Source of the DNA: Halorussus rarus
GTDB lineage: Archaea; Halobacteriota; Halobacteria; Halobacteriales; Haladaptataceae
NCBI RefSeq assembly: GCF_003369835.1
Contig: NZ_QPMJ01000002.1
Coordinates: 868,001-932,000, forward strand
Direction: 5' to 3'
DNA length: 64,000 nt
Shown: positions 48,772-58,130 of the stretch, one piece after another
Position numbering within the stretch: the first letter of the stretch is position 1
Layout: each line of letters starts with the position of its first letter
The notes under the pieces: generated by a model
Databases searched by the model: none
Told to the model about the DNA's origin: nothing
Seen by the model: the letters and a program-made list of their open reading frames with translations, nothing else
Program-made: the position numbers and the translations under genes

Positions 48772-48823
48772 CCCCTCCCCCGTGACACCTCCCCCGTGAC
48801 ACTGTTCCTGACCGCGGGCCGTT

Positions 48824-48905
48824 GTTGCAAGGATTCTCGATTATAGTGTTGCGCGGTTTGAATAGCGTGTTTTTCGCAGATGCACACTTTCTGCGCGATA
48901 CTGTT
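48824..48905 (+). repeat. Flanking direct repeat with GTTGCAAGGA iterons, left
   Basis: About 80 bases (gttgcaaggattctcgatta, then tagtgtt, then cgcagatgcaca, then atactgtt) that recur at 49641-49720 with roughly three quarters identity. Iteron GTTGCAAGGA occurs at 48824-48833 and 48923-48932 on this side. Confidence 0.65.
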
Positions 48906-48965: not shown

Positions 48966-49589
48966 GAAATACTGGCTCTGTTGAAACCCTCTCCTTTATA
49001 GATCTATTCGCGTGAATTTACTACACATCACACGTGCAAACTGAATGCGGAGATTCCTATCAGTTTCAGTTGAGGATGCTTAAGTCGAGGCGGATACACA
49101 TCATTCGACGGACTTCAACACGACTTCGGTGGACGATACAGTTACGCGGTATCCGTAGTACGTGAACGATACCTCCACATCCCTTTGCTCATCGGTGAAG
49201 AGTTGGTTGAGCGCATCGGCGGCTACAACATCATAAATTGGGGGCAAACTCGCTGGATCCCGGTTTTCAGCGGCAGCGATGGTGGCCACAATGACTTCTA
49301 CAGGGGACTCGTCATCGCGGATGCGGTGAGTTGTTTCGTATCCCACGACATTCAACCTTTATTCTGTAGGTTGAAAAGTTGAAAGGTGTATCCTACCACT
49401 CAATATAAAAATATTACAGATTACTGCTTAATTGCTGGTAGAATGATCAGTGGTTTCTTCCTTAGAAGAGCAGACCGCTCGCATCTCACCCTCACGGCTA
49501 AGAAGGGAGTGATAAATTAATTATCTGCACTGAACGCAGACGGTCCCATTCTTATCATGTTCTAAGGGTTTCAACAGAGCCGAAATACT
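48966..49589. mobile_element. Non-autonomous IS6-type element with 8-bp TSD
   Basis: The element spans 48974-49581 (608 bases). Its ends are perfect 17-base inverted repeats: GGCTCTGTTGAAACCCT at 48974-48990 and the complement at 49565-49581. Both sides are flanked by GAAATACT (48966-48973; 49582-49589), a perfect 8-base target duplication. IS6-family elements make 8-bp duplications and have GG(T/C)TCTGTTG-like ends. There is no transposase gene inside, only a HalOD1 gene, so it depends on a transposase elsewhere. Confidence 0.8.
49101..49355 (-). CDS. HalOD1 domain protein carried by the mobile element
   Basis: Encodes 84 residues: PVEVIVATIAAAENRDPASLP, PIYDVVAADALNQLFTDEQR, VEVSFTYYGYRVTVSSTEVV. 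This is the haloarchaeal output domain 1 (HalOD1) pattern, a small module found as single proteins or at the end of signalling proteins. It is inside the 608-base element and is its only gene. Its role is unknown. Confidence 0.8.
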   Translation of the reverse strand: MNVVGYETTHRIRDDESPVEVIVATIAAAENRDPASLPPIYDVVAADALNQLFTDEQRDVEVSFTYYGYRVTVSSTEVVLKSVE

Positions 49590-49611: not shown

Positions 49612-49640
49612 GTTGTACAGCCCTGATTCACCGTGCGCCT

Positions 49641-49720
49641 GTTGCAAGGATTCTCGATTCTAGTGTTACGTGCACTGAAGGTTGTGTTTTCCGTGGATGC
49701 ACAGATTCTGCAGTACTGTT
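49641..49720 (+). repeat. Flanking direct repeat with iteron, right
   Basis: Right copy of the about 80-base direct repeat, starting with iteron GTTGCAAGGA at 49641-49650 and ending cagtactgtt. With the left copy it brackets the mobile element and the two middle iterons. Confidence 0.65.
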
Positions 49721-58092: not shown

Positions 58093-58117
58093 CAGGCGAT
58101 ATCCTCTCAAGTAACCC

Positions 58118-58130
58118 TGTTGAAACCCTA
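58118..58130. repeat. Solo match to the IS6-type element end
   Basis: CTGTTGAAACCCT, 13 of the 17 end bases of the mobile element found at 48974. There is no partner arm nearby, so it may be an old insertion scar or chance. Confidence 0.35.

Follow-up and report, generated by a model that had tools for sequence, protein, structure and literature searches.

A 608-bp HalOD1-carrying insertion in Halorussus rarus as a probable mobile insertion cassette of an IS5-family (ISHla2-type) group with exchangeable cargo

MITEs, mobile insertion cassettes (MICs) and transporter IS (tIS) are established kinds of element (PMC3129680, PMC7986276). Among haloarchaea, ISH2 is known as a MITE that holds an open reading frame between ISH8-type ends and gives 10-bp duplications (PMC3119063, PMC10264941), and a transposon passenger gene is mentioned in one haloarchaeal paper (PMC10544981). 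HalOD1, the haloarchaeal output domain, occurs in up to 49 stand-alone copies per genome as well as in response regulators (PMC5847659), and one HalOD1 protein, DdfA, is needed for disk shape in Haloferax volcanii (PMC10869688). Here, we describe a 608-bp element at positions 48974-49581 of a 64,000-nucleotide stretch of Halorussus rarus DNA (the window), bearing GGCTCTGTTGAAACCCT in inverted orientation at both ends. We consider it very likely to be a mobile insertion cassette of the haloarchaeal IS5-family (ISHla2-type) group, moved in trans, with a HalOD1 gene as its passenger and exchangeable cargo. Its features, in window positions, are the following.

48966-48973, no strand: left copy of the 8-bp target site duplication, GAAATACT, read directly from the sequence and present as a single copy at the empty site of sister genomes.
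48974-49581, no strand: the 608-bp non-autonomous element, assigned as an IS5 (ISHla2)-type mobile insertion cassette (17/17 inverted ends, 8/8 duplication, single copy in its own genome).
48974-48990, plus strand: 17-bp terminal inverted repeat, transposase-distal (IRR-type) end (17/17 match; the identical 17-mer lies at both ends of the host's 1304-bp autonomous element).
48974-49045, plus strand: conserved 72-bp end (LE), with homology to the right end of IS5-type elements that bear a transposase (83% to the family consensus; closes transposase-bearing elements with 8/8 duplications).
49101-49355, minus strand: single-domain HalOD1 gene, 84 aa, TTG start with an alternative in-frame GTG at 49346 (PF18545, E 1.6e-19).
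49403-49409, minus strand: TATA-like box (TTTATAT on the minus strand), a putative promoter read from sequence only, 48 nt upstream of the HalOD1 start and inside the element.
49525-49581, minus strand: 57-bp conserved opposite end (RE), common to other transposase-less cassettes (alignment; profile match E 1.2e-17).
49565-49581, minus strand: 17-bp terminal inverted repeat, second end (17/17 match).
49582-49589, no strand: right copy of the 8-bp target site duplication, GAAATACT, read directly from the sequence.

A preliminary description of this DNA had reported perfect 17-base inverted ends and a perfect 8-base target duplication, and both were borne out (17/17 at 48974-48990 on the plus and 49565-49581 on the minus strand; GAAATACT at 48966-48973 and 49582-49589). 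By our own arithmetic, the chance of a perfect 17-bp inverted pair within 1 kb together with an 8/8 duplication is about 1e-7 for the window, which holds three end sites at up to three mismatches against 0.10 expected from shuffles. The description had also named the lack of an empty site in relatives as grounds for its own refutation. When the two flanks were joined and searched against 18 genomes of the same genus, the insertion point was found uninterrupted, with one target copy, in three of them (L255, L256, where it occurs twice in tandem, and L257), the homologous DNA being intergenic and 69-72% identical. The proposed transposition is therefore upheld by the ends, the duplication and the empty site; that it was recent is undatable and argued only by the perfection of the ends and the duplication. 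No further copy of the 608-bp unit was found in the host genome, a check that the description had called for, and the unit is thus single-copy. The end match that it had placed at 58118 is real as a three-mismatch sequence, AACCCTGTTGAAACCCT at 58113-58129, just after a gene end; no partner end or duplication was found for it, so it was rejected as a second element and represents at most a solo remnant. The insertion is also flanked by intergenic 72-nt repeats (48823-48894 and 49640-49711, 79% alike), to which arrays in the sister genomes, once in tandem, are homologous; these repeats lie near a helicase-like gene and could be replication or regulatory repeats.

The only substantial gene in the unit is the open reading frame at 49101-49355. 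Its length alone is ordinary, being reached in 106 of 500 shuffles, and we accept it as real because of its Pfam match: the protein aligns to positions 1-70 of the 74-position HalOD1 profile (PF18545) with 70.2 bits against a cut-off of 26.3. DdfA (HVO_2176, Haloferax volcanii) is likewise a HalOD1-domain protein, yet the cargo protein falls under its equivalog cut-off (NF053557, 63.9 versus 70 bits, a near miss) and is therefore not assignable as DdfA. Since a TATA-like box sits inside the unit, the gene probably brings its own putative promoter. HalOD1 matches number 33 in the host genome. The closest HalOD1 protein (65% identity, Natrialba swarupiae, L013) was rejected as a copy of the element, no ends being found around its gene, and neither a relative of the window HalOD1 nor an exact copy of the conserved 28-bp end was found in viral contigs. 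Within 48974-49581, no transposase gene or transposase remnant was found, in agreement with the preliminary picture of a transposase-less unit carrying one complete HalOD1 gene as cargo. The accompanying term 'MITE-like' was imprecise: MITEs are short, non-coding and devoid of genes, and this unit holds an intact HalOD1 gene (E 1.6e-19). Its IS terminal inverted repeats, target duplication, missing transposase and passenger gene are instead those by which a mobile insertion cassette is defined.

The family of the unit could be read from the host genome itself, where the exact 17-mer occurs at four sites, namely the two ends of the unit and the two ends of a 1304-bp element (G000:C2:946667-947970; duplication GAATCTCC) about 29 kb downstream. 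This element encodes a 90-aa predicted membrane passenger and an intact 273-aa IS5-family (ISHla2-type) transposase (NF033579, 217 bits against a cut-off of 140, E 3.6e-64; Pfam DDE_Tnp_1), the only one of its type found in the host genome. The transposase had no match to an IS6 model, and RefSeq names the plasmid relatives of the element IS5-like ISHla2 and ISHxa2. An autonomous host element with these ends, which the preliminary description had suggested seeking, thus exists, but its transposase belongs to the IS5 family and not to IS6. The 8-bp target duplication of ISHla2-type IS5 elements is present in the window unit (GAAATACT) and perfect (8/8) in 48 transposase-bearing elements. An IS of the IS5 family encodes its own transposase; the unit has none, and for that reason it is an IS5-family derivative and not an IS.

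The earlier label 'IS6-type' would make the unit a non-autonomous IS6-family derivative moved by an IS6 transposase. Its GG tips and TGTT...AAA motif do resemble the IS6 end consensus, IS6 elements give 8-bp duplications (PMC7986276), and the host genome contains two IS240/IS6-type matches, one of them above cut-off. However, the elements that bear these ends encode an IS5 transposase, no inverted repeat of the unit's type was found flanking either of the two IS6-type genes of the host, and a haloarchaeal IS6, that of Halobacterium salinarum KBTZ03, has ends (GGCACTGTCTAGTTTA) that share no more than the GG tip and a TGT motif with those of the unit. An IS6 origin was rejected on transposase type and IS6 end sequence, and we regard it as extremely improbable; the misassignment is explained by haloarchaeal IS6 elements, which likewise start with GG and produce 8-bp duplications. 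In H. salinarum KBTZ03, an IS6 element (L102:2463-3206, duplication TCATTGAC) is inserted in the transposase of a 1922-bp element of the ISHla2-type group.

Inward of the 17-bp repeats, the two ends of the unit have different relatives. At the threshold applied in the search, a conserved sequence to which the 72-bp LE has about 83% identity was found in 143 of 391 haloarchaeal genomes, although many weak hits span no more than the terminal 30-40 bp. At many loci, LE-type sequence forms one end of an element, an IS5 transposase follows the other end, and the 8-bp duplications are perfect; examples are a 1382-bp element of Natrialba magadii (duplication ACTCTTCT) and a 1412-bp element, two copies of which lie at differing duplications in a single genome. 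This makes the left end of the unit the transposase-distal end of IS5-type elements. The opposite 57-bp end, RE, is common to transposase-less cassettes of N. magadii (638 bp, lipoprotein gene, 7/8 duplication), Natrinema sp. DC36 (716 bp, GATGGTTT), Natrialba swarupiae (375 bp, GAATAATT) and Natrinema sp. SYSU A 869 (1398 bp, regulator genes, 7/8 duplication), and it leads none of the 48 transposase-bearing elements (0/48).

These end types bear on whether the unit is a cassette built by end-pairing or an internally deleted transposase-bearing element whose HalOD1 passenger survived the loss of the transposase. Transposase-bearing elements with a HalOD1 passenger do exist (L209/L261), as do elements that combine a decayed transposase remnant with a passenger (L067, L075), and internal deletion would accord with both. 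Against it, the transposase-side end of the unit is the distinct 57-bp type of the transposase-less cassettes, found as the leader of 0 of 48 transposase-bearing elements, and the unit retains no transposase remnant; we therefore judge internal deletion unlikely and prefer a cassette built by end-pairing and moved in trans. A transposase recognising the 17-bp ends would move the unit while cutting an 8-bp staggered target; in the host, the 1304-bp element some 29 kb downstream, whose transposase is intact, is the obvious source of that enzyme. The HalOD1 gene would travel as a passenger with a putative promoter inside the unit. The trans-mobilisation is inferred; a cognate intact transposase with identical ends is present. 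The single-copy state of the unit in the host genome counts against this reading. Since the 1304-bp element matches the unit only in the terminal 17-18 bp and the inner ends of the unit are closer to Natrialbaceae-type elements, the unit may in fact have been moved by another transposase that is no longer present.

The transposase-bearing relatives were assembled by fetching loci with the transposase as query, which yielded 48 distinct elements with perfect 8-bp duplications. In all 48, the transposase starts 52-53 nt inside the left end; total length runs from 1193 to 4019 bp and the distance from the transposase stop to the right end from 316 to 3142 bp. The left end and the transposase are common to these elements, and the content after the transposase stop, the slot, differs. 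In plasmid records (megablast), likeness to the 1304-bp element likewise spans the left end and the transposase and stops at bases 879-889, within about 10 bases of the transposase end. The full 1304-bp sequence occurs identically in four genomes at four different targets with different duplications, which shows that transposase and passenger move as a unit. Where 5 kb of sequence downstream was available (38 loci), end-like sites were found 42 times in right-end orientation and 6 times in the opposite one.

The slots hold mostly unrelated genes, including small membrane proteins, kinases, regulators, transporters and enzymes, and the transposase-less cassettes show a similar diversity of cargo. 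Scanning slots and cassettes gave 110 open reading frames in 97 blastp groups, a minority being transposase fragments or doubtful frames. In 30 of 47 elements, the longest slot frame is longer than in shuffles (p<0.05), and most of the smallest slots give no significant excess; since the shortest slots (about 320-390 bp) mostly lack frames beyond shuffle expectation, some elements may carry non-coding DNA, not genes. Identified signalling or regulatory cargo includes HalOD1, DUF7344, a PAS-histidine kinase, a 7TM histidine kinase, HTH_10/BAT, and Lrp-type and HxlR regulators. Other identified cargo includes a RibD_C-type reductase, a methyltransferase, a redoxin, a PLP enzyme, GNAT, an alpha/beta hydrolase, GST and CMD, along with a binding protein, a formate/nitrite transporter, TrkA_C, an HD domain, RDD and DUF6653.

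Further members of the group were encountered in the course of this survey. The host genome contains a second cassette of 881 bp (L011:670-1550, G000:C2:517669-518549; 7/8 duplication), whose 214-aa protein had no Pfam or NCBIfam family match. Outside the window, the 1304-bp element splits a TIR-like-domain gene, the frame being broken at the duplication (L009:2025-4606, G000:C2:946024-948605); the split gene sits between two degenerate ends of the ISHla2-type group, which suggests an older cassette carrying a TIR-domain gene. A non-coding MITE of 124-125 bp with the ends of the group recurs in several haloarchaea (L081, L082, L058, L167 and L145:5301-5425), its full-length copies being 82-94% identical to each other.

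The group would combine constant ends with an exchangeable cargo region. For new cargo to enter, two elements lying close together, or an element and a solo end, would have their outer ends paired, and all the DNA in between would move with them. Other IS are known to move as composites through paired outer ends. Two loci have the appearance expected if the transposase pairs the outer ends of neighbours, and they may represent cargo-capture intermediates. In L145, a 125-bp MITE of the group comes first, then a HalOD1 gene and finally another element's 72-bp end; the duplication encloses all three, and the MITE's own right flank, TCTATTTT, mismatches its left flank. L155 is a 5278-bp composite in which 1.6 kb separates a transposase-bearing element from a distinct cassette; its outer bounds are AATTATTG, and its inner flanks, AACACATT and GTTGTGGT, mismatch. 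By analogy with other IS, paired-end composite movement would then be the cargo-loading route in the ISHla2-type group.

The expectation that HalOD1 genes would lie within related elements elsewhere held in two further cases. The first is the 701-bp unit L145 (from G091, a genome grouped by genus with the Natrinema records; duplication AAACGGGC), and the second a 2042-bp transposase-bearing element on Haloarcula taiwanensis plasmid pNYT2 (L209/L261; duplication GGTATTTT), where HalOD1 lies beside a DUF7344 gene and both genes are annotated as hypothetical. Each of these proteins, from L145 and from Haloarcula, is 33% identical to the window HalOD1, so these are separate captures, and the group has taken up HalOD1 at least three times. 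On two Natrinema zhouii plasmids (L108:2501-3149 and L110:2502-3149), a unit holding a response regulator gene begins exactly at the conserved end, the two units being 79% alike; their right end is lost, and each adjoins a different HalOD1 gene. These HalOD1 genes, next to the right ends, were rejected as cargo, as the repeated unit stops before HalOD1.

Three independent units with HalOD1, and the often regulatory nature of the other cargo (histidine kinases, DUF7344, HTH_10, HxlR), could be taken to mean that the function of HalOD1 is selected for by the element, in regulating transposition or the state of the host, and that the gene is no accidental passenger. We give this reading little credence: HalOD1 genes are so common (33 in the host genome) that two further cases in about 70 elements are not a significant enrichment, and most cargo of the group is unrelated to HalOD1. 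Set against about 0.75% of genes, the two cases would be weak evidence, and we claim no enrichment of HalOD1 among the cargo. An accidental passenger remains our preferred reading, and the elements provide one concrete vehicle for moving stand-alone HalOD1 genes, picked up at least three times.

The ISHla2-type group with variable cargo is widespread among haloarchaea, and its shared ends and transposase with near-unique passengers suggest that simple IS5-type elements are a route of gene shuffling in these organisms. Passenger genes of IS have otherwise been treated as exceptional, and many found here bear no annotation beyond 'hypothetical protein' next to a transposase. In the literature searched, we found no earlier description of the group with variable cargo; key older papers lay outside that search, so prior absence is unproven. 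More tentatively, and a little short of an even balance in our estimation, ISHla2-type elements may be a general gene-capture system, in which both the end with the transposase and the one opposite are kept unchanged, the slot content is replaced almost entirely from copy to copy by neighbour-end pairing, and small regulatory genes such as stand-alone HalOD1 are dispersed class-wide. If so, they would be the transposon counterpart of integron gene cassettes.

Compared with described systems, the unit has the same 17-bp ends, with few mismatches, as ISHla2 and ISHxa2 (IS5 family; Halorubrum lacusprofundi and Halopiger xanaduensis), the 2490-bp ISHxa2 unit also giving a duplication of the same 8-bp length (CACCGTCT), and their transposases share about 81-82% identity with the one encoded by the 1304-bp element of the host. 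They differ in carrying their own transposase, which the 608-bp unit lacks, and in their passenger. ISH2 (Halobacterium) and HqIRS32 (Haloquadratum) are, like the unit, haloarchaeal, transposase-less and equipped with a short open reading frame, at about 520-531 bp, and are mobilised in trans, as is proposed for the unit; ISH2 differs in its ISH8-related ends and 10-bp duplications (PMC10264941), and belongs to another family with other cargo. The transposase-bearing relatives resemble tIS, IS copies with passengers unrelated to transposition, but the ISHla2-type group has a slot of 316-3142 bp in 48 of 48 resolved copies, with mostly non-homologous content, and the 608-bp unit itself is without transposase. 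The closest likeness in structure is to the MICs of the Bacillus cereus group and of qnrD/qnrS2, which also have inverted ends, a target duplication, no transposase and one passenger gene, and for which mobilisation in trans is expected. Whereas the MICs described are bacterial, the 608-bp unit is archaeal and IS5-type, and stands in a family with conserved subterminal ends and many cargos.
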